NCBI RefSeq assembly: GCF_000717875.1
Contig: NZ_JOCT01000008.1
Location: 62,001 to 126,000 of the forward strand
Reading direction: 5' to 3'
DNA from: Streptomyces sp. NRRL S-455
GTDB taxonomy: Bacteria; Actinomycetota; Actinomycetes; Streptomycetales; Streptomycetaceae
Length of the DNA: 64,000 bases
Below, in pieces: positions 34,229 to 45,166 of this stretch (positions are counted from its first letter, which is position 1; every line of letters begins with the position of its first letter). The notes below the pieces were generated by a model, which saw nothing but the letters and a program-made list of their open reading frames with translations, was not told the DNA's origin and did no database searches. Position numbers and translations under genes: made by a program.

Positions 34229-35665
34229 GTGACACAACTGCCGACGAGCAGTCCGCCACCACCGAGCCCCGGCCTGTCCACACTCCCGGCCGTCCCGGCC
34301 CAACCGGCACAATCACCGCAGGCGCCGCACGGTCGTACGGAGCCCCAGCCCCGCCGCACGGCTTTCGCCGAGGGCTTCGATCAACTCCGGGCCGCCGCCA
34401 CGACCGAACCCGGCCGTCTCCGCATCATCGGCGCCGTTCTCGCTCTACTCGTCGTCGCCTTCGGCGCCGTCACCGCCTGGCAGATGACCGACCGCGCGGC
34501 CGCCGCCGACGACGTCCTGACCAGCAGCCAGCCCCTCAGTTCGGACGCGGCCGACATCTACCGCTCCCTCGCGGACGCCAACACCGCCGCTTCCAGCGGC
34601 TTCCTCGCCGGCGGCCAGGAGACGGCCACCTCCCGCGACCGGTACGAGAGGAACATCCGCACGGCCGCGGAGAAACTCGTCAACGCCGCCGCCAACTCGG
34701 AACCCGACTCCCCGTCGGCCGCGACCATCGCCAGGCTGAACAGACTCCTCCCCGAGTACAAGGGCCTGGTCGAACGCGCCCGCACCTACAACCGCCAGGG
34801 CTTCCCGGTCGGCGGCGCCTACCTCCGCTACGCCAACGAGAAGATGCAACAGCAGATGCTCCCGGCAGCCGAGGACCTGTACAAGAAAGAGAACCAGCGC
34901 CTGCGCGCGGACTACGCGGACGCCACGCCCTACCCCTGGGCCGCCATCGCCCTCGGCGTCGCCGCCCTCGCCGCCCTCGCCTGGGCCCAGCACCGCAACT
35001 ACCAGCGGACGAACCGTGTCCTGAACCACGGCCTGGTCGCCGCCACGGCCACCGCGACCGTGGTCCTCCTCTGGCTGGTCGTCGGCCACAGCGTCGCCCG
35101 CGCGGGCCTGAACGACTCCTACGACCACGGCGTCCGCTCCCTGAACGTCCTGCACGACGCCCGCATCGCCTCCCTCAAGGCGAGAGGCAACGAGAACCTC
35201 ACCCTGGTGGCCCGGGGCGCCGAGACGAAGAAGGTCGGCGACGAGACCTACGACGCGTACGACTACGACTTCCGGGCGGAGATGAAAGCCCTGGGCGAGT
35301 ACCTGGCGGACGCCGAGCAGCTCGCCGACGACAGCTCTGGTGAGCGGCCCGTCACCGCCGCCACCGGCAACATGGCGGAGTGGAAGAAGCGCCACACCGC
35401 GGCCCGTGAGCAGGACGAGAACGGCAACTACCAGCGTGCGCTGGACATGGTGATCGGAGCGAAGAACGCGACCGGCGAGTGCTTCGACAGCGTCGACGAG
35501 AACCTGCGCACGGCACTCGCCCACGAGGAGACCGAGTTCAAGCACGCCGCCGGTGACGGCAGGGACGCCCTGACGGGCCTGTCGGCGGGTGCGGCGGTAC
35601 TCGGCGTGCTCGGCGCGGCGGGCGCGGTACTGGGCATCGGCCGCAGGCTCTCGGAGTACCGGTGA
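34229..35665 (+). CDS. glnX: GlnX-like four-helix membrane sensor
   Basis: A 478-residue protein with a Pro-rich cytoplasmic N-terminus and four predicted membrane helices: IIGAVLALLVVAFGAVTAW near residue 66, WAAIALGVAALAALAWA near 236, TATATVVLLWLVVGHSV near 270, and a C-terminal one (LSAGAAVLGVLGAAGAVLGI near 452). The two external loops of about 140-160 residues are alpha-helical. In corynebacteria and mycobacteria GlnX relays amino-acid availability from the periplasmic protein GlnH to kinase PknG; gene order here (glnX, glnH, then pknG) is the basis of the call. GTG 34229 has GGGGGAGG five bases upstream. The glnH start overlaps its stop (GTGA), so the two are coupled. Confidence 0.75.
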   Translation: MTQLPTSSPPPPSPGLSTLPAVPAQPAQSPQAPHGRTEPQPRRTAFAEGFDQLRAAATTEPGRLRIIGAVLALLVVAFGAVTAWQMTDRAAAADDVLTSSQPLSSDAADIYRSLADANTAASSGFLAGGQETATSRDRYERNIRTAAEKLVNAAANSEPDSPSAATIARLNRLLPEYKGLVERARTYNRQGFPVGGAYLRYANEKMQQQMLPAAEDLYKKENQRLRADYADATPYPWAAIALGVAALAALAWAQHRNYQRTNRVLNHGLVAATATATVVLLWLVVGHSVARAGLNDSYDHGVRSLNVLHDARIASLKARGNENLTLVARGAETKKVGDETYDAYDYDFRAEMKALGEYLADAEQLADDSSGERPVTAATGNMAEWKKRHTAAREQDENGNYQRALDMVIGAKNATGECFDSVDENLRTALAHEETEFKHAAGDGRDALTGLSAGAAVLGVLGAAGAVLGIGRRLSEYR

Positions 35666-36732
35666 ACGGGACGGAGGCGAAAGGGGGCGTGGCCATGCGA
35701 GCGCGACGTCTGCGGGCCAGTCTGAAGGGCTGGGGCGGGGTGGCCGCGATGGCGGCCGTGTGCGCCCTGGTGGCCGTCTTCGCACTCTGCCTCCCCGCTG
35801 CCGGACCGGGCATCGTGGACGGCCGGGCCGTCACCCGGGCCGCCCAGACCAGGACGGTGCAGGCCGAAGAGGACTGCGAGGCCCCCGAGAAGCAGACCCT
35901 GCCCCCCTCCTCCGCGGACGGCGACACCATCCGGGCGATCAAGAACCGCGAGGGCGAGAAACGCAAGCTGATCGTCGGAGTCGACCAGAACAGCTACCGC
36001 TGGGGCTACCGCGACCCCAACAGCGGCCAGACCGCGGAGCTGGAGGGCTTCGACATCGATCTGGTCCACCGCATCGCCGAGGACATCCTGGGCGACCCGG
36101 ACGCGGTCCAGTTCAAGGCGATCCCCACCGACCAGCGCATCCCGGCGATCCAGGACGGCCGCGTGGACATGGTCGTCCGGACGATGACGATCAACTGTGA
36201 ACGCATCAAGGACGTCGCCTTCTCCGCGCCGTACTTCAAGACGGGACAGCAGGTCCTGGCCCCCAAGTCCTCACCCGTCACGGGCTACGACGACACACTC
36301 GCGGGCCGCAAGGTCTGCACGGCGGCGGGCTCCACGGCGTACTCGACGCTGGAGAAGGACCGGAAGAACGGCGAACTCCCCGCCGGCACCGACATCTCCG
36401 GAACCGTCCCCAACCAACTCGACTGCCTGGTGAGGCTCCAGCTGGGCGAGGCCGACGCCGTCGTCACGGACGGCGCGCTCGCGGCGAGCCAGGCGGCACA
36501 GGATCCGACGGTCCAGCTCAAGGGCGACGCGTTCACTGCCGAGTACTACGGCGTGGCGATGAAGAAGGACGCGGACGATCTGGTACGCCGGGTCAACCAG
36601 ATCCTGGTGGACTACCGCAAGGACTCTGCCGACGGCTGGCAGGCGTCGTACGAGCAATGGCTGTCGGCGACACTGGGCAAGGATGCGAAGAAGTCGGAAC
36701 CACCGGCACCCCAGTACCTCCGAACCACCTGA
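35662..36732 (+). CDS. glnH: GlnH-like extracytoplasmic amino-acid-binding protein
   Basis: A 356-residue family 3 solute-binding protein. It has an N-terminal hydrophobic segment (GVAAMAAVCALVAVFALCLP), which looks like a signal or anchor; the Cys there does not sit in a standard lipobox, so anchoring may be by an uncleaved helix. The binding fold is complete: KLIVGVDQNSYRWGYRDPNS, LEGFDIDLVHRIAEDILGD, RIPAIQDGRVDMVVRTMTIN and AGRKVCTAAGSTAYSTL. In the related system GlnH binds aspartate or glutamate and signals through GlnX to PknG. GTG 35662 overlaps the glnX stop; ATG 35695 with AAAGGGGG upstream is the alternative. No transporter permease or ATPase gene is linked, which supports a sensing rather than an uptake role. 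Confidence 0.82.
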   Translation: MNGTEAKGGVAMRARRLRASLKGWGGVAAMAAVCALVAVFALCLPAAGPGIVDGRAVTRAAQTRTVQAEEDCEAPEKQTLPPSSADGDTIRAIKNREGEKRKLIVGVDQNSYRWGYRDPNSGQTAELEGFDIDLVHRIAEDILGDPDAVQFKAIPTDQRIPAIQDGRVDMVVRTMTINCERIKDVAFSAPYFKTGQQVLAPKSSPVTGYDDTLAGRKVCTAAGSTAYSTLEKDRKNGELPAGTDISGTVPNQLDCLVRLQLGEADAVVTDGALAASQAAQDPTVQLKGDAFTAEYYGVAMKKDADDLVRRVNQILVDYRKDSADGWQASYEQWLSATLGKDAKKSEPPAPQYLRTT

Positions 36733-36813
36733 CGAACCGCACCACTCGACAGACCGCACCACCTGACAACGCGACCGACCCCCCAACCGCACAACCGCAG
36801 CGAGAGGTGATCG

Positions 36814-38148
36814 ATGGGCGTCACGGGATCCACCGGGCCGGTGATGGACCGGGACGAGGTGGACCGTGCGCTGGCGCGGCTCGGCGCGGAGCACGAGGCG
36901 ATCGAGACCTCGCTCCTCGCCCTCCAGGACCACGCGGGCCGCAGACTCCTGGAGGGTGCCGAACTCACCGGCGTCACCCGGGAACGCTGGACCTCCACGG
37001 AGGCGTCGATCACGCTGCTGTGGACCTACTTCGACGCGTACACGGACGCTCTGCGCACCGCCCGGGAGATCCGCTCCCGCCGCCGCTGGTCCAGCCGTGA
37101 GGACCTGGTGGAGCTGACGGAGCTGCTGAACGGCGAGTCGGTCACGGTCGCGGGCAGCGCCACCGCCACGGCCAACGCCCCGACGCCGCACGGCGCCGCG
37201 AACAAACTCAGCGAACGCTACTCACTGGGCACCCTCGTCGACCGGATGAACGAGCTGTACGCGACGAGCCTGGACATGGTCGTCGCCGCCGACGCGGTCT
37301 GGTCGGCCCTGCCGGCCCGGATCGATCTGCTGGCAGCCGAACTCCAGCGCACCCGCCGGCTCGCGCACTCGGTCGGCGTGCGCCCCGGCGAGCACCCCGC
37401 GGGCGACGACCTGGAGCGCATCACCCGCATACTGACGAAGCTGCGCGAGCAGGTGATCTCGGACCCGCTGGCGTTCTGGCAGGCCTCGGAGGGCAGTTCG
37501 GCTCCGGGCGGCGGCAGGCCGGACACCACGGTGTACGACCGTGAGGCACGCGCCCTGGAGGACGTACGGCGGGAGATCGACGCCGTCCTGACGGTGCGCC
37601 AGGACGCCGAGAAGCGGATCGTCAAGCTCCGGGACATCCTCAGCCGGGCGGACCGTACGCTCGCCGAGGCGCGCACCGCTCGCGGCGAGGTCCTCGCGAA
37701 GATCGCGGCGACGGAGGTGCCGGTGGTCAGCGGACCGCCGACGGTGCTGCAGGAGCAGCTGGCGACGGCCGCGGAGTTCCGCAGGCAGGCACAGTGGCAC
37801 CGGCTGTCCCCGCTCCTGGAGTCGCTGGAGCAGAAGGCGGAGGACGAACTGCTGCGCGCCCGCGAGTCGCTGACCGCGGTCACGGCGCCCCTGGCGGTCC
37901 GTGCCGAGCTGCGCGGCCGTCTCGACGCGTACAAGGCGAAGGTCGCCCGGCACGGCTTCGCCGAGGACTCGCTGCTCGTGGAGCGGTACGAGAAGGCGCG
38001 CCGCATGCTGTGGAGCGCCCCCTGCGACCTGCGCGCCGCCGAACAGGCCGTGCTGCGCTACCAGCAGGCGGCCGCGGAACTGCTCGGCGGCCCGCGGGTC
38101 CCGGACCAGGGCGTGCCCGAGGACGACCGGAGGGGGCCCGGCGCATGA
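36814..38148 (+). CDS. coiled-coil protein of the PknG operon, unknown function
   Basis: A 444-residue, almost wholly helical and highly charged protein without signal peptide or membrane helix. Long heptad-like stretches include REARALEDVRREIDAVLTVR and ILSRADRTLAEARTARGEVL, then LLESLEQKAEDELLRARESL. No catalytic motif is visible and I do not recognise a named family. ATG 36814 has GAGAGG eight bases upstream. Its stop overlaps the start of the PknG-like kinase gene (ATGA), so it is made with the kinase and is a reasonable candidate for a scaffold or adaptor between the membrane sensor and the kinase; this is inference from position only. Confidence 0.7.
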   Translation: MGVTGSTGPVMDRDEVDRALARLGAEHEAIETSLLALQDHAGRRLLEGAELTGVTRERWTSTEASITLLWTYFDAYTDALRTAREIRSRRRWSSREDLVELTELLNGESVTVAGSATATANAPTPHGAANKLSERYSLGTLVDRMNELYATSLDMVVAADAVWSALPARIDLLAAELQRTRRLAHSVGVRPGEHPAGDDLERITRILTKLREQVISDPLAFWQASEGSSAPGGGRPDTTVYDREARALEDVRREIDAVLTVRQDAEKRIVKLRDILSRADRTLAEARTARGEVLAKIAATEVPVVSGPPTVLQEQLATAAEFRRQAQWHRLSPLLESLEQKAEDELLRARESLTAVTAPLAVRAELRGRLDAYKAKVARHGFAEDSLLVERYEKARRMLWSAPCDLRAAEQAVLRYQQAAAELLGGPRVPDQGVPEDDRRGPGA

Positions 38149-40706
38149 GCGACAAGGGGGAGTCCATGACTCAGGCACCGCACCCACCACCAGCCGAGCC
38201 GGCGAACGGGCCCCAGCGCAGCTGCCAGCGCCCCGCCTGTGAGGGCACCTACGAGGACGTGGGCGGCGGCGAGCTGTACTGCGACACCTGCGGCCTCGCC
38301 CCGGTCGTCGCACCGAACGGCATGGTCGGTTCGCCCCCGACCGGCATCACCGCGGGCGGCAAGGGCGGCTCCCACGGCTCGGGGCGCAGCGGCGGCTCCC
38401 GCTCCGGCGGCCGCAGTTCGCGTACGTCGTCCCAGTCGTCGAAGTCCCGCCGCTCGGTGTCGGGACGGCTCTCGCGCTCCCTGTCGGGCAAGCCCACGAG
38501 CCGTTCGTTGTCGGTGCGCAGCTCCGGTTCCGGCGCCGGTTCCTCGACGCGGGGCCGGCTGGGCGCCGGGCTGGTCCAGGTCCCGCCGATCCCGCGGCCC
38601 GACCCGCGCGAGATGGTCCTGGACAACCCGGAGGTGCCCGAGCGGAAGCGGTTCTGCTCACGCTCCGACTGCGGCGCCCCGGTGGGCCGTGCGCGCGGTG
38701 ACCGGCCGGGGCGCACGGAGGGCTTCTGCACCAAGTGCGGGCACCCGTACTCGTTCGTACCGAAGCTGAAGGCCGGGGACGTCGTGCACGGCCAGTACGA
38801 GGTCGTCGGCTGCCTCGCGCACGGCGGCCTGGGCTGGATCTACCTGGCGGTCGACCGGGCGGTGTCCGATCGCTGGGTGGTCCTCAAGGGCCTGCTGGAC
38901 ACGGGCGACCAGGACGCGATGGCCGCGGCGATCTCCGAGCGGCGCTTCCTGGCGGAGATCGAGCACGCCAACATCGTGCGGATCTACAACTTCGTGGAGC
39001 ACCTGGACCAGCGCACCGGCTCCCTCGACGGCTACATCGTCATGGAGTACGTCGGCGGCAAGTCGCTGAAGGAGATCGCCAACGACCGCCGCACACCGCA
39101 CGGCAGGCGCGATCCGCTGCCCGTGGAGCAGGCCTGCGCGTACGGCATCGAGGCCCTGGAGGCACTCGGCCACCTGCACAGCCGCAACCTCCTGTACTGC
39201 GACTTCAAGGTCGACAACGCGATCCAGACCGAGGACCAGCTCAAGCTGATCGACATGGGCGCGGTGCGCAGGATGGACGACGAGGAGTCGGCCATCTACG
39301 GCACGGTCGGATACCAGGCGCCGGAGGTCGCCGAGGCCGGCCCGTCGGTGTCGAGCGACCTCTACACCGTCGCCCGCACCCTCGCCGTCCTGACCTTCGA
39401 CTTCCAGGGCTACACGAACGTCTACGTCGACTCGCTGCCCGACCCGGACAACATCGAGGTCTTCCGGCAGTACGAGTCGTTCTACCGCCTCCTGGTCCGC
39501 GCCACGGACCCGGACCCGGCCCGCCGGTTCGCCTCCGCGCAGGAGATGACCGAGCAGCTCACGGGTGTCCTGCGGGAGGTGGTGTCCCTCCAGACGGGCC
39601 GGGCCCGGCCCGCCCTCTCCACGCTGTTCGGGCCCGAACTCCGGGTCACGGACACGGAGCTGTTCCCGAAGCCGGCCGGCGAGGTGTCCCGGCTGGGGGC
39701 ACGGGCGGTACGGACACGTCGCCCGCCCTCGACCGCGGCCGCGCTGCCCACCGCGCACAGCCTCGTCAAAGCCGTCGACACCACCACCACGGCCCTCGCC
39801 CTGCCCGTCCCGCGGGTCGACCCGTCCGACCCCAACGCCGGTTTCCTCGCGGGCCTGATGACCTCCGCGCCCGCCGAACTGCTCGGCGCCCTCGCCGCCG
39901 CCCCGGCCCCGTCGACCGAGACCCGGCTGCGGCAGATCCGGGCCTGGCTGGAGACCGGCGACCCGGCCGCCGCACTGCGGGCGCTGGTCACCCTGGAGGG
40001 CGAGCGGCCCGACGACTGGCGGGTGGTCTGGTACCGGGGCGTGGCCGCGCTGGTCACGGGCGACGACGAGGGCGCCGCGCTCGCCTTCGACGCGATCTAC
40101 GACGCCTTCCCCGGCGAGATCGCGCCCAAGCTGGCGCTGGGCCTGTGCGCGGAGGTGCTCGGCCAGCTGGACAACGCCGCCGAGTACTACCGGCTGGTGT
40201 GGTCGACCGACCCGAGCCATGTGAGCGCCGCGTTCGGGCTGGCCCGCGTGCAGCTGGCGACCGGCGACCGGCGCGGCGCCGTACGGACGCTGGAGTCGGT
40301 CCCGGAGTCCTCCATCCACTACACGGCGGCCCGGGTGGCGGCCGTCCGGGCGCGGCTGCGGCAGCGCACGGCGACCGCCTCCGACGCACCGTTCCTGGAG
40401 GACCTGACGGCCGCCGCGGCGCAGGTCGAGGCGCTGGAGGCGTACGGTCTGGATCCGGCGCGGCGTGAGCAGTTGTCGGCCGAAGTCCTCGGTTGCGCCC
40501 TGGACTGGGTACTCTCCGGGGGCCAGGGTTCCGCCCTTCCCGCCGCCGGGGGACGGACGCTGCTCGGCAGCGGCCTGGACGAGCGGGGACTGCGTTTCGG
40601 ACTGGAACGCTCGTACCGCACGCTGGCCCGGCTGGCGCGGGGCGGCGAGGAGAGGATCGACCTGGTGGAACGTGCCAACCGTTACCGCCCCCGGACGTGG
40701 GTGTAA
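38145..40706 (+). CDS. pknG: PknG-like serine/threonine kinase with zinc ribbons and TPR domain
   Basis: An 853-residue soluble kinase with the PknG layout. Residues 27-49 hold a first four-cysteine ribbon (C27, C32, C46, C49); 76-138 is a linker made almost only of Ser, Arg and Gly; 171-198 is the rubredoxin-like ribbon (C171, C176, C195, C198) that gates the active site in PknG. The kinase domain (about 216-480) has AHGGLGWIY, the ATP lysine K248, the catalytic loop YCDFKVDN (D353, K355, N358) and IDMGAV in place of DFG (D370), as in PknG. The C-terminal 300 residues are TPR-like. Mycobacterial PknG (about 750 residues) phosphorylates the FHA protein GarA. ATG 38145 overlaps the previous stop; ATG 38166 has a good GGGGGAG site and is an alternative. 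Confidence 0.88.
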   Translation: MSDKGESMTQAPHPPPAEPANGPQRSCQRPACEGTYEDVGGGELYCDTCGLAPVVAPNGMVGSPPTGITAGGKGGSHGSGRSGGSRSGGRSSRTSSQSSKSRRSVSGRLSRSLSGKPTSRSLSVRSSGSGAGSSTRGRLGAGLVQVPPIPRPDPREMVLDNPEVPERKRFCSRSDCGAPVGRARGDRPGRTEGFCTKCGHPYSFVPKLKAGDVVHGQYEVVGCLAHGGLGWIYLAVDRAVSDRWVVLKGLLDTGDQDAMAAAISERRFLAEIEHANIVRIYNFVEHLDQRTGSLDGYIVMEYVGGKSLKEIANDRRTPHGRRDPLPVEQACAYGIEALEALGHLHSRNLLYCDFKVDNAIQTEDQLKLIDMGAVRRMDDEESAIYGTVGYQAPEVAEAGPSVSSDLYTVARTLAVLTFDFQGYTNVYVDSLPDPDNIEVFRQYESFYRLLVRATDPDPARRFASAQEMTEQLTGVLREVVSLQTGRARPALSTLFGPELRVTDTELFPKPAGEVSRLGARAVRTRRPPSTAAALPTAHSLVKAVDTTTTALALPVPRVDPSDPNAGFLAGLMTSAPAELLGALAAAPAPSTETRLRQIRAWLETGDPAAALRALVTLEGERPDDWRVVWYRGVAALVTGDDEGAALAFDAIYDAFPGEIAPKLALGLCAEVLGQLDNAAEYYRLVWSTDPSHVSAAFGLARVQLATGDRRGAVRTLESVPESSIHYTAARVAAVRARLRQRTATASDAPFLEDLTAAAAQVEALEAYGLDPARREQLSAEVLGCALDWVLSGGQGSALPAAGGRTLLGSGLDERGLRFGLERSYRTLARLARGGEERIDLVERANRYRPRTWV

Positions 40707-40709
40707 TTG

Positions 40710-42041
40710 ATGTCGCAGATGCCCCAGTTGTCCGCCTGCCCGAGTTGCGAGGAACCCCTCGACTCGGGTGACCGTTTCTGCGGCGCGTGCGGATATGACC
40801 TGTCCGCCGTGCCGGCACGGCCTCAGGACAACCCGACCATCACCATGAACGGCTCGGTGCCCGCCCAGGGCGCTCCGGCCGGTGAGTATCCCGAGCCACC
40901 GTCGGCGCCGCCCGCCGGCACGGCCTGGCCGGCGCCCCCGCCACCGAGCGCCCCGCCGGCCACCGGCGTACGGTTCGACCGGCGGCCGGACGGGCAGCCC
41001 GCGCCACCCGGGAGCGACACCGCCCGGCCCGGGACCTACCCGGGACAGCAGCCCGACGAGTACCTCCTCCAGGCACCGGACCCACGGGTGTCCGCCGACC
41101 CGCCGGCGCAGGCCGCGGGCGCCGGCGGCAAGGTCTGCGTGGCCTGCCGGGCCGGCCGCGTGGACGACGACGGCTACTGCGAGAACTGCGGCCACGCCCA
41201 GCCGCGCGAACGGGACCACATGGAGCAGGAGTCCGGCCCGGTGGCCGCGGTCAGCGACCGCGGCCTGCGCCACCACCGCAACGAGGACGCGTTCGCCATC
41301 GGCACGACCGCGCTCCCCGACGGCTCGCCCGCCTCCGTGGCGATCGTCTGCGACGGCGTCTCGTCGGCGACCCGCCCCGACGCCGCCTCGATGGCGGCGT
41401 CGAAGGCGGCGAGCGAGACACTGCTGGCCGCCCTGCCGCGCGGCACGCACCCGCAGCAGGCGATGCACGAAGCGATCGTCGCCGCCTCACACGCCGTCAA
41501 CTCGCTCGCCGGGGAACCCGCCACGGCCCGTGAGCACGCCCCGCACCAGAACGCCCCGGCGTGCACCATCGTCGGCGCCGTGGTGACGTCGGGCCTGCTG
41601 ATCGTCGGCTGGGTCGGCGACAGCCGTGCCTACTGGGTCCCGGTCGACCGGAGCGCACCTCCCGCCCGGCTCACCGAGGACGACTCCTGGGCCGCGCAGA
41701 TGGTCGCCGCCGGCCTGATGAACGAGTCCGAGGCCTACGCCGACGAGCGCGCCCACGCGATCACAGGCTGGCTGGGCGCTGACGCCTACGAACTGGAACC
41801 GCACACCGCCGCGTTCAAGCCGGACCGGCCGGGCGTCGTCGTGGTCTGCACGGACGGTCTGTGGAACTACGCGGAGGCGGCCGAGGAGATGGCCCGGGTC
41901 GTCCCGCTCGACGCCGCCACCCATCCGCTGCACAGCGCCCGGGTGCTCGTCGGCCACGCCCTGGACGGCGGGGGCCACGACAACGTAACAGTGGCCCTCG
42001 TGCCGTTCCCGGCGGTCCTCCAGGGGGCAGGATCGGCCTGA
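40710..42041 (+). CDS. PP2C-type serine/threonine phosphatase with zinc ribbons
   Basis: A 443-residue protein. The N-terminus has a zinc ribbon (C10, C13, C24, C27: CPSCEEPL, FCGACGYD), then a Pro-rich disordered linker and a second ribbon (CVACRAG, YCENCG) near residues 140-160. The PP2C domain starts at about 175: VSDRGLRHHRNEDAFAI, VAIVCDGVSSATRPD, GWVGDSRAYWV, VCTDGLWNYAE and GGHDNVTVAL are the metal-binding motifs in order. It starts three bases after the kinase stop and is the natural opposing phosphatase for it. The shared double-ribbon architecture with the kinase and the FHA protein suggests these proteins dock to one another. Confidence 0.88.
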   Translation: MSQMPQLSACPSCEEPLDSGDRFCGACGYDLSAVPARPQDNPTITMNGSVPAQGAPAGEYPEPPSAPPAGTAWPAPPPPSAPPATGVRFDRRPDGQPAPPGSDTARPGTYPGQQPDEYLLQAPDPRVSADPPAQAAGAGGKVCVACRAGRVDDDGYCENCGHAQPRERDHMEQESGPVAAVSDRGLRHHRNEDAFAIGTTALPDGSPASVAIVCDGVSSATRPDAASMAASKAASETLLAALPRGTHPQQAMHEAIVAASHAVNSLAGEPATAREHAPHQNAPACTIVGAVVTSGLLIVGWVGDSRAYWVPVDRSAPPARLTEDDSWAAQMVAAGLMNESEAYADERAHAITGWLGADAYELEPHTAAFKPDRPGVVVVCTDGLWNYAEAAEEMARVVPLDAATHPLHSARVLVGHALDGGGHDNVTVALVPFPAVLQGAGSA

Positions 42042-42140
42042 GGCCGTGTACCGGACGCCTCGGCGGACCGGAGGGGACCGCTCCGCCTACCGTCATCACC
42101 CCGTCCTCGGCGGGGGCTTTGGAGGGGGATCGAAGCAGGC

Positions 42141-43487
42141 ATGGCCATTTTCTCGAAACCGAACGTGCCCCGGTTCTCGGTGGACGTGTACCAGAACGAG
42201 TACCTGCCTGAAGGCGCCGGCGAGGTCAACGCCATCGTCACGGTGACGGCGACCGGTGGCGGCACGGTCGGCAGCGCGGTCTCGGCGCCCCATCTCTACT
42301 CACCCGGGCAGGGCCCGTCCGCAGCCGTAGCGATCATGGTCGACTGCTCCGGGTCGATGGACTACCCGCCGACCAAGATGCGCAACGCCCGGGACGCGAC
42401 GGCCGCCGCCATCGACACCCTGCGCGACGGCGTGCACTTCGCGGTGATCGGCGGGACGCACGTGGCCAAGGAGGTCTACCCGGGCGGCGGGAACCTCGCG
42501 GTCGCCGACGCCACCACCCGCGCACAGGCCAAGCAGGCGCTGCGCTCGCTCAGCGCGGGCGGCGGCACGGCCATCGGCACCTGGCTGAAACTGGCCGACC
42601 GACTGCTGTCGTCCGCGGACGTCGCCATCCGGCACGGCATCCTCCTCACCGACGGCCGCAACGAGCACGAGTCGCCCCAGGACCTGAAGGCCGCGCTGGA
42701 CGCGTGCGCGGGGCGCTTCACCTGTGACGCGCGCGGCGTGGGCACGGACTGGGAAGTGAAAGAAGTCACAGGGATCGCTTCCGCCCTGCTCGGCACCGCC
42801 GACATCGTCGCCGACCCGGCCGGGCTGGCCGCCGACTTCACGCACATGATGGAAACGGCGATGGGCAAGGAGGTCGCGGACGTCTTCCTGCGGCTGTGGA
42901 CCCCGGTCGACACCACCGTGAAGTTCGTCAAGCGGGTCGCGCCGACGGTCGAGGACCTGACCGGCCGGCGCACCGAGGCGGGCCCCCGGGCGGGCGACTA
43001 CCCCCTTGGTTCCTGGGGAGACGAGTCCCGTGACTATCACCTCTGCGTGGAAGTCCCGGCCGCGAACATCGGCCAGGAGATGCTGGCGGCCCGCGTCTCG
43101 CTGGTCATTCCGCAGCCCGACGGCAGCGTTCAGAACCTCGGCGCGCAGGGCCTGGTGCGGGCCGTGTGGACGGACGACATGGTCGCCTCGACGTCGATCA
43201 ACCCCCAAGTCGCCCACTACACCGGGCAGGCCGAACTGGCACAAGCCATCCAACAAGGGCTGGACCTTCGCAAGTCGGGAGATATGGACGGAGCAACGGC
43301 CAAACTGGGCCGGGCCGTTCAGCTCGCGAGTGCCTCCGGGAACGCCGATACTGCGAAACTGCTTGCGAAGGTGGTGGACGTGGTCGATGCCGCGACCGGT
43401 ACTGTGCGACTGAAGGCGAAGGTCGAGGAGGCCGACGAGATGACGCTCGAGACCCGGTCCACCAAGACCGTCCGCGTGAAGAAGTGA
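42141..43487 (+). CDS. von Willebrand factor A (vWA) domain protein
   Basis: A 448-residue soluble protein. After about 55 residues of beta-rich sequence comes a vWA domain with a full MIDAS metal site: IMVDCSGSMDYPP near residue 64 (D-x-S-x-S), SAGGGTAIGTWL near 138 (Thr) and ILLTDGRNEHE near 170 (Asp). The C-terminal half is beta-rich, then a helical end (ELAQAIQQGLDLRKSGDM). vWA proteins bind ligands or assemble complexes through the metal site. ATG 42141 has GGAGGGGG about 12 bases upstream. It lies in the kinase operon between the phosphatase and FHA genes; vWA proteins next to PP2C, kinase and FHA genes are known from type VI-like and TerD-type signalling clusters, so an adaptor role is plausible. 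Confidence 0.85.
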   Translation: MAIFSKPNVPRFSVDVYQNEYLPEGAGEVNAIVTVTATGGGTVGSAVSAPHLYSPGQGPSAAVAIMVDCSGSMDYPPTKMRNARDATAAAIDTLRDGVHFAVIGGTHVAKEVYPGGGNLAVADATTRAQAKQALRSLSAGGGTAIGTWLKLADRLLSSADVAIRHGILLTDGRNEHESPQDLKAALDACAGRFTCDARGVGTDWEVKEVTGIASALLGTADIVADPAGLAADFTHMMETAMGKEVADVFLRLWTPVDTTVKFVKRVAPTVEDLTGRRTEAGPRAGDYPLGSWGDESRDYHLCVEVPAANIGQEMLAARVSLVIPQPDGSVQNLGAQGLVRAVWTDDMVASTSINPQVAHYTGQAELAQAIQQGLDLRKSGDMDGATAKLGRAVQLASASGNADTAKLLAKVVDVVDAATGTVRLKAKVEEADEMTLETRSTKTVRVKK

Positions 43488-43519
43488 CCTAGAAGAGATC
43501 GAAGGAGGGACGCGCCGAC

Positions 43520-45166
43520 ATGCCGACCTGCCCGAACGGACACCAGTCGGGTTCCGACGACTGGTGCGAGGTCTGCGGTCACCGCATGGCGGGTGCCGTG
43601 CCTCCGCCTCCACCGCCGCCCCCGCCCGGCGGCGGCTACGGCTTCCCGCCACCCGGCGGACCCGGTGGTCCCGGTGGCCCAGGCGGCCCTCCCGGCGGCC
43701 CTGGCGGCCCCGGTGGCCAGCCCGGTGGGCGCCCTCCGCACCTGTCCGCCGTGCCGAACGCCGAGCCGGAGCTCTGCCCGCAGTGCCGTACGCCGCGGGA
43801 GGGCGCCGCCCCGTTCTGCGAGGAGTGCCGGTGGAACTTCCTGACGAACACGGCGACCTCGTACACGCCCGCCGCTCCGCCTCCGACGTCGCCCGGCCCG
43901 GGCGGGCGCTTCCAGCCACCGGGCGGGCCCGGTCCTTCCGGCCCGTCGGGTCCCTCCTACGGCGGCGGTGACGCGTTCGAGTACCAGAGTTCCCGCCCGT
44001 CGCAGGTGAACCGCCCGGCCGAGCCGATCCCGCCGTTCGGCGACCCCTCCGGCCGGCCGGGCCCGGGCGGTCCCGGTGGGCACAGTGGTCCTCCCGGTCC
44101 TGGTGGCCCGGGCGGCCCCGGCGGTTTCGGTGGTCCTTCCGGGCCGGGTGGTCCTGGTGGTCCTTCCGGGCCCGGTGGTCCTGGTGGGCCCGGTGGCCCC
44201 GGCAGTTTCGGTGGTCCTTCCGGGCCGGGTGGTCCCGGGGGGCCTGGTGGTCCTTCCGCTCCGGGCGGTCCCGGTGGACACGGTGGTCCTCCCGGTCCCG
44301 GTGGCCCGGGCGGCCCCGGCGGTTTCGGTGGTCCTTCCGGGCCCGGTGGTCCGGGTGGTCCTTCCGGGCCAGGCGGTCCTGGTGGCCCCGGCGGCCCCGG
44401 CGGCCCGCCCGGATTCGGTGCCGCCCCCTCGCGGCAGGGCCCGCCGCCTGGACCCGGTGCGCCCGGCGCGCCCGGTGGCGCTCCGCAGGGCTACCAGCAG
44501 TCCGCCCCGTCGGCCCCGCCCGGATTCCCGCAGGAGACCCAGCGGCCGCCCCAGGGCGGTGCGCCCTTCGGCGGCGGCGGTGACGACGACTGGGTGATCT
44601 CCCCGCCCTCGTCCACCGGCCCCGGCGGCCCCGGCGGCCCCGGCGGCCCTGGTGGCCCCGGCGGTCAGGGTGGCGGCTACGGCTACCCCCAGCCCGGCGC
44701 GACCCAGGCGCCCCCCGGCCCCGGCGGCTTCCCGCAGCAGCCCCAGGCACCCCAGGGGCCGGCCACCTGGACGGCGACCATCGGCCCGGACCGCGACTAC
44801 TTCATGGCGATGATGCAGCGCTCCGGACCCGAGGCCGCGGGCCTGAACCTGCCCGCGTACTCGCCCGAGCAGCAGCGCACGCTCACCGGCAACCAGCTCA
44901 CCATCGGCCGCCGGCGGCACTCCACCGGCGACACCCCCGACATCGACCTGTCGGTGCCGCCGGAGGACCCGGGTGTCTCGCACCAGCACGCGGTGCTGGT
45001 CCAGCAGCCGGACGGCAGCTGGGCGGTGGTCGACCAGAACTCGACGAACGGCACGACGGTCAACGGCTCGGACGAGCCGATCCAGCCGTTCGTCCCCGTA
45101 CCGCTGCAGGACGGCGACCGGGTGCACGTGGGCGCCTGGACGACGATCACGATCCGCCGCGGCTGA
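43520..45166 (+). CDS. FHA-domain protein with zinc ribbons and collagen-like Gly-Pro repeat
   Basis: A 548-residue protein. It starts with a ribbon ([20 protein letters not shown]), a short Pro/Gly linker and a second ribbon ([20 protein letters not shown]). Residues about 175-305 are nearly pure Gly, Pro and Ser in G-P-G-G-P-type units with an internal duplication of about 200 bp. The C-terminal FHA domain (about 450-548) has the phosphothreonine-binding motifs: [16 protein letters not shown] and [11 protein letters not shown]. In mycobacteria the FHA protein GarA is the PknG target that switches glutamate metabolism; this one ends the pknG operon and may be the readout, although it lacks GarA's short ETT N-terminus. 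ATG 43520 has GAAGGAGG about ten bases upstream. Confidence 0.88.

Follow-up and report, generated by a model that had tools for sequence, protein, structure and literature searches.

A conserved seven-gene PknG operon in Streptomyces and other actinobacteria, with a possible ArnA/ArnB-like FHA-vWA output

Introduction

The window analysed here is a stretch of 64,000 nucleotides from Streptomyces sp. NRRL S-455, whose genome (G000) is assembled to 8.23 Mb in 120 contigs. Between positions 34229 and 45166 it carries seven open reading frames (ORFs) on the forward strand, which encode, in order, GlnX, GlnH, a coiled-coil protein, a PknG kinase, a PP2C phosphatase, a vWA protein and an FHA protein. 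This unit is real and widespread, and no paper describing the seven genes as a whole was found in the literature searched, most subscription papers falling outside that search. Figure 2B of PMC6069109 draws the pknG operon across Actinomycetales and may include some of these genes. We favour the reading that the operon forms a PknG/PP2C switch gated by an amino acid, whose output beside GarA is an FHA-vWA pair like ArnA/ArnB, and give about equal weight to its being right and its being wrong.

The PknG literature surveyed centres on the mycobacterial and corynebacterial systems. Should the original version of the system have had its own phosphatase and its own FHA-vWA complex, the search for outputs in antibiotic producers would have missed part of the circuit. 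The vWA protein is in the same family as PDB entry 4fx5, a crystallised protein with no assigned role that would gain a testable place.

Gene order and distribution

Of 41 relatives, counting the genome of the window, 36 have a PknG_TPR match. From the 35 other matching genomes 32 main PknG loci were fetched, the three with the match at a contig end being left out; 8 further PknG loci were fetched as well. By tblastn the arrangement of all seven genes is identical in 31 of the 32 main loci, namely in 20/20 loci of the genus and in 11/12 belonging to a second family within the order, where the remaining locus (L064) is truncated by a contig end. Because it recurs in so many loci the order is not a matter of chance, and this supports the proposal, made when the DNA was first read from the sequence alone, that the genes for sensor, kinase, phosphatase, vWA protein and FHA protein belong to a single conserved unit. 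The co-directional layout described in that sequence-only reading is likewise confirmed, with active-site and zinc-ribbon residues retained. Its "several stop-start overlaps" come down to two real ones of 4 bases, at 35662 (glnX/glnH) and 38145 (coiled-coil/pknG); the remaining four junctions have gaps, of 3 bases between PknG and PP2C and of 81, 99 and 32 bases elsewhere. A scan for promoters and terminators gave nothing above the shuffled mean.

At the level of the class, 101 of 296 genomes have PknG_TPR and 71 have VWA_3_C. At 59 of 132 PknG places a VWA_3_C match follows on the same strand within 6 kb, and 59 of 87 vWA places are linked in this way, although some unlinked PknG or vWA places may lie on broken contigs. 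By family, the PknG-vWA linkage is 26/36 in f1, 11/18 in f19, 12/39 in f20, 6/6 in f28, 1/1 in both f13 and f44, 1/2 in f48, 0/1 in f29 and 1/28 in the mycobacteria-like family f6. A search of a plasmid collection returned one record, of 11.85 Mb, from Nonomuraea.

We then read 35 loci from other families with profiles rebuilt from the aligned regions of those 32 main loci. Five more families and one mycobacteria-like locus have the genes for kinase, phosphatase, vWA protein and FHA protein side by side. In f19, 7/12 main loci run coiled-coil, PknG, PP2C, vWA, FHA and then GlnX and GlnH, the others being without a coiled-coil match, a full vWA gene, or more. Family f20 supplies four loci with all seven genes arranged as in Streptomyces, where the coiled-coil gene matches with 88-109 bits, and a fifth that is cut by a contig end. 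Four loci from f28, f13 and f44 hold the other six genes, the coiled-coil match being absent or of 31 bits only (L148); their FHA genes give a weak profile match or none (L140), and Pfam finds FHA in each. L141 (f48) and four f6 loci have GlnX, GlnH and PknG only, while a fifth f6 locus, L143 (G320:C144), has the complete seven-gene cassette; its genome shows four PknG_TPR rows, two of which are pieces of one gene. At L147:7384-11585 a PP2C-vWA-FHA trio lies near a cysteinyl-tRNA synthetase gene, with no PknG in the 20 kb read and no kinase among the eight ORFs scanned with Pfam. One genus member (G191:C25:47562-50563) has what looks like a cassette in decay or broken up, its PknG and vWA frames being only 184 and 128 residues long.

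The vWA protein and its C-terminal tail

Outside the 4fx5 family, the top PDB matches of the vWA protein in Foldseek are archaeal ArnB and its paralogue. Its predicted structure contains a vWA domain, a beta-sandwich and a C-terminal helical domain as in ArnB, the superposition being loose. The residues of the metal-ion-dependent adhesion site (D68, S70, S72, T143 and D171) are intact, in 15/15, 54/54 and 53/53 sequences of three homologue sets. The authors of the Arn work list 4fx5 as an architectural relative of ArnB, and report that such relatives mostly do not take part in phosphorylation-dependent processes; because of its gene neighbours, the 4fx5-family protein probably does act in one.

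Beyond the C-terminal helices lies a predicted disordered tail (residues 440-448, predicted local distance difference test, pLDDT, below 50), and it is here that the hydroxyl cluster of the protein sits. In an alignment of 54 sequences, made up of the window protein and 53 picked from 120 listed matches of 7954, S440, T443 and R445 are present in 54/54, with Thr or Ser at 441 and Lys or Arg at 442. Most of the motif is outside the PF18571 model, whose match stops at residue 440. Within the last 45 residues of 50 main vWA proteins, ST.T occurs in 46/50 and S[TV].[ST] in 49/50; when the tails are shuffled, ST.T occurs in 1.6 on average and in 6 at most.

Among 60 vWA proteins scoring above 200 bits, 51 have their gene followed by an FHA gene within 3 kb, and S[TVS].T was found in the last 45 residues of 50 of these 51; it was found there in 0 of the 9 without such an FHA gene, three of these nine having the motif further in. 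A recount with rebuilt profiles gave 49/50 and 1/10, the difference being L140, whose FHA gene was detected only by the first profile and by Pfam. This association is confounded, being explained in part by ancestry. The tail motif is also similar to the site that GarA carries in these organisms (TSTISI and variants), which is no more than a lead.

The operon FHA protein and the unlinked GarA

The FHA protein retains R464 in 52/53 homologues and S487, H490 and N510 in 53/53, and at least two ribbon patterns occur in 47/54. Its linker (window:44042-44420) is largely Gly-Pro-rich with a collagen-like Gly-X-Y register, and the FHA frames of the 20 genus loci, counted from stop to stop, are between 365 and 758 residues long.

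The sequence-only reading raised the possibility that this protein acts as GarA does, which the OdhI/GarA model NF041660 does not bear out. The operon protein scores 23.2 bits against a cut-off of 200 and its translation contains no ETTS motif, whereas the top match in the same genome (G000:C1:559177) scores 187.9 bits, just below the cut-off, and carries SETTSTISI. On this score the operon FHA protein was rejected as GarA. A zinc ribbon is likewise present in the unlinked GarA-like protein (Zn_Ribbon_1, 34.9 bits), placed N-terminally (G000:C1:559177-559512; L080:1483-2430, minus strand). In 21 GarA ORFs, that of the window's genome and 20 chosen out of 118 genomes, a CX2C...CX2C ribbon is present in 19, the two without it being the two mycobacteria-like (f6) ORFs; exact ETTS occurs in 7/21, the others mostly having variants such as TSTI. 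Against the PDB, the FHA-domain profile matched GarA structures (best E 1.5e-8) and did not clearly favour ArnA over GarA.

Kinase, phosphatase and zinc ribbons

The kinase matches PknG_TPR (293.5 bits), PknG_rubred (PF16919, 106.4 bits) and Pkinase (87.5 bits), all above cut-off, and PknG in PDB entry 2pzi with E 9e-170. Its catalytic positions K248, D353, K355, N358 and D370 are kept in 60/60 homologues, and the five active-site Asp of the phosphatase in 53-54/54. The extra N-terminal ribbon of PknG is absent mainly in f6 and L141. After the first PP2C ribbon, PT[ILVM] (window:40833-40847) occurs in 8/8 of the Streptomyces homologues inspected and is perhaps a further phosphosite.

Two zinc ribbons had been proposed for each of the kinase, the phosphatase and the FHA protein, and this is confirmed, partly by cysteine pattern alone: the first PknG ribbon, the second PP2C ribbon and both FHA-protein ribbons were assigned from such patterns without a Pfam match in the window protein. 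Because ribbons occur in these three proteins and in the unlinked GarA, a docking role would fit, though zinc ribbons are common.

Several PknG paralogues were seen in other settings. In L072-L074 and L076-L079 they lie beside a vWA gene, and the cassette FHA profile finds nothing there. By eye, a CX2C-type ribbon closes several of the vWA proteins concerned, that of L076 giving a Zn_ribbon_3 match slightly below cut-off. In L135, L136 and L154 (f20) a GlnH/GlnX pair lies on the opposite strand, and in L135 and L154 a second pair lies on the kinase strand, so that two sensor pairs flank one kinase.

The sensor pair and the coiled-coil protein

The GlnX protein scores 190.6 bits against the GlnX equivalog NF041460 and so does not reach its cut-off of 780 bits. 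For GlnH, seven ligand-contact residues of the mycobacterial protein, named in PMC6069109, were mapped via the 6h1u alignment. Four of the seven (Arg159, Thr174, Arg181 and Asp270) are identical, and the changes here are Ser164 to Thr, Lys161 to Arg and Trp232 to Gln. Among 63 GlnH homologues the four identical residues are kept in 55, 58, 59 and 60 respectively, and Trp is present at position 232 in 6. GlnX and GlnH are a putative amino-acid sensor pair, whose ligand is likely, not certain, to be an acidic amino acid.

The coiled-coil protein had been put forward as undescribed, consistent with our finding no Pfam family above cut-off and none in NCBIfam or PADLOC. Its AlphaFold2 model is almost entirely helical (mean pLDDT 88.2) and gave no PDB match with E at or below 0.001 among 145 with E up to 10, which does not show a new fold because helical models match poorly. 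Homologues number 2626 among 7997 scored candidates; those with names are called hypothetical or coiled-coil, apart from a few stray labels, and the named ones among the 120 listed are from Streptomyces. In L054 most of this gene is in the pknG frame and the rest in another, a split caused by a frameshift or a sequencing error. Since the gene sits directly before pknG, the protein probably scaffolds the kinase and its partners.

Table 1. Features of the seven-gene operon, with positions in the window
Feature	Position	Strand	Evidence
GlnX-like membrane sensor, GTG start	34229..35665	+	NF058618 511.5 bits, cut-off 250
GlnH-like solute-binding protein, overlapping glnX stop	35662..36732	+	SBP_bac_3 94 bits; top PDB match 6h1u GlnH
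Coiled-coil / all-helical protein, no known family	36814..38148	+	Pfam, NCBIfam; AlphaFold2 model
PknG-type kinase: N-terminal zinc ribbon, Ser/Thr-rich linker, rubredoxin, kinase, TPR	38145..40706	+	Pfam; PDB 2pzi
Extra N-terminal zinc ribbon of PknG, Cys27-Cys49	38223..38291	+	Kept in 52-56/60 homologues
PknG rubredoxin cysteines, Cys171-Cys198	38655..38738	+	Kept in 56-60/60 homologues
PP2C phosphatase, two zinc ribbons; start ATG 40710 or TTG 40707	40710..42041	+	PP2C_2 50.6 bits
First PP2C zinc ribbon	40737..40790	+	Zn_Ribbon_1 28.3 bits; Cys kept in 51-52/54
Second PP2C zinc ribbon	41136..41189	+	Cys kept in 48-49/54
ArnB-like vWA protein: vWA, beta-sandwich, C-terminal helices	42141..43487	+	VWA_3, VWA_3_C; PDB 4fx5 family
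S-T-K-T-x-R tail motif, proposed phosphoacceptor	43458..43475	+	S440, T443, R445 conservation
Zinc-ribbon FHA protein, Gly/Pro-rich linker	43520..45166	+	FHA 60.5 bits
CX3H...CX2C ribbon of FHA protein	43529..43576	+	Translation; homologue pattern
Second FHA-protein ribbon, CX2C...CX2C	43775..43828	+	Translation; homologue pattern
FHA domain	44900..45133	+	PF00498, residues 461-538

Proposed mechanism and alternatives

The gene order, its conservation, the intact active sites, the likeness in fold and the conserved tail are observed, and from these we infer each phosphorylation, binding and ligand step of the proposed switch, the scaffold role of the coiled-coil protein and the downstream output. 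An amino acid outside the cell, probably an acidic one, would be sensed by GlnH and GlnX, which would control PknG. As in relatives, PknG would phosphorylate the unlinked GarA; a second substrate would be the vWA protein, at its disordered S-T-K-T-x-R tail, and the PP2C protein would remove these phosphates. The FHA protein would sit loosely on the vWA protein by means of its ribbons, and its FHA domain would bind tightly once the tail is phosphorylated. This would follow the manner of Sulfolobus, where ArnA, an FHA protein with a zinc finger, binds ArnB when ArnB is phosphorylated (PMC6509490, PMC12852372). The conserved unit and the undescribed coiled-coil protein stand from the earlier interpretation; its term "phosphorelay" is wrong for Ser/Thr kinase signalling.

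The alternative that survives best, rather unlikely in our judgement, is that this is the known GlnH-GlnX-PknG sensor with GarA as its sole physiological output, the phosphatase, vWA and FHA proteins merely tuning or holding PknG. The GarA-like protein with an ETTS site elsewhere in the genome and the three-gene content of four mycobacteria-like loci and L141 speak for it, as does the phosphorylation of Saccharopolyspora GarA at ETTS (PMC12321487). However, the extra genes have been kept over several families with catalytic and binding residues intact, and in L147 PP2C, vWA and FHA genes occur together where the 20 kb read holds no PknG.

We regard as less likely again that the FHA protein reads the autophosphorylated Ser/Thr-rich linker of PknG, and not the vWA tail, to form a kinase-bound scaffold. 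Autophosphorylated mycobacterial PknG recruits GarA through its N-terminal region, and here the inter-ribbon linker is Ser/Thr/Arg-rich in several homologues. This linker varies in sequence and length, whereas the vWA tail is almost fixed, and the FHA gene adjoins the vWA gene in L147 without PknG.

Very unlikely, we think, is a stress or conflict system, either TerY-P or of the zinc-ribbon kinase, PP2C and vWA kind linked to GAP1-N2 GTPase systems. In TerY-P zinc-ribbon kinase, PP2C and vWA genes stand together. For actinobacteria, PMC7159879 reports kinase genes, often with zinc ribbons, linked to PP2C and vWA. Against this are the dedicated amino-acid sensor pair, the presence of PknG_TPR in most genus genomes, and PADLOC, which found no match for the phosphatase, the vWA or the FHA protein. 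As a defence-system candidate the operon was rejected, PADLOC having yielded matches to the PknG kinase domain only; for the TerY-P triad, the lack of a PADLOC match for PP2C and vWA counts only as far as its library contains the triad models. Finally, we find it highly improbable that the operon FHA protein serves as another GarA, with 2-oxoglutarate dehydrogenase or glutamate dehydrogenase as its binding partner. The match of its FHA domain to GarA structures speaks for this, the low NF041660 score and the missing ETTS motif against it.

Direction of evolutionary change

The maximum-likelihood tree contains 54 PknG sequences: 11 from the thinned set of 32 genus and order loci, that of the window, 8 from the further loci and 34 from the 35 chosen loci. 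The four three-gene f6 sequences group with L143 (100/99), and the f6 group is nested in a 32-row clade (96/95) with f1, f3, f13, f20, f28, f44, f29 and L141, most of them cassette-bearing. A label for a vWA neighbour above 350 bits requires 10 changes on the tree, paralogues with a weaker vWA neighbour being scored as without. The tree is midpoint-rooted and describes the kinase gene only, with some long branches and a partly open inner order of the 32-row clade.

Because the mycobacteria-like three-gene loci fall among cassette-bearing loci they look reduced, and loss in the mycobacterial line is the simplest reading of the three-gene operon; the partner genes may instead have been gained by transfer. 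To call the Streptomyces operon "expanded", as the sequence-only reading did, is therefore probably to take the direction wrongly. A wider proposal, which we find doubtful, would make the seven-part PknG switch ancestral and its direct output a bacterial complex of the ArnA/ArnB type, in which the zinc-ribbon FHA protein sits on the vWA protein at its phosphorylated tail. A single kinase-phosphatase-vWA-FHA design would then underlie both the control of starvation in archaea and that of amino acids in actinobacteria, and the mycobacterial operon would be a remnant that lost this output and kept GarA alone.

Comparison with known systems

The GlnH-GlnX-PknG system with GarA/OdhI in Mycobacterium and Corynebacterium shares with this operon the sensor pair, the kinase domains and a GarA-like protein in the genome. 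Here the coiled-coil, PP2C, vWA and FHA genes and an extra PknG zinc ribbon are added, and the GarA-like protein itself is zinc-ribboned. For the GAP1-N2 kinase-PP2C-vWA sets the likeness is that zinc-ribbon kinase, PP2C and vWA genes stand together in both, while the PknG TPR and GlnX/GlnH found here are not mentioned for GAP1-N2 systems in the available part of PMC7159879.

The ArnA-ArnB-ArnC-PP2A system of Sulfolobus likewise has neighbouring genes for a zinc-finger FHA protein and a protein of vWA, beta-sandwich and helical domains, and both systems have a kinase bearing a TPR-like stretch, a Ser/Thr phosphatase and a nutrient input. They differ in that here the kinase is PknG with a membrane sensor pair, PP2C takes the place of PP2A, there is no archaellum, and the ribbon type of the FHA protein is not the RanBP2 type of ArnA. 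Sequence identity is 13-15%, and the phosphoacceptor-like residues here are in a tail, where the Arn system uses threonines of a helix pair.

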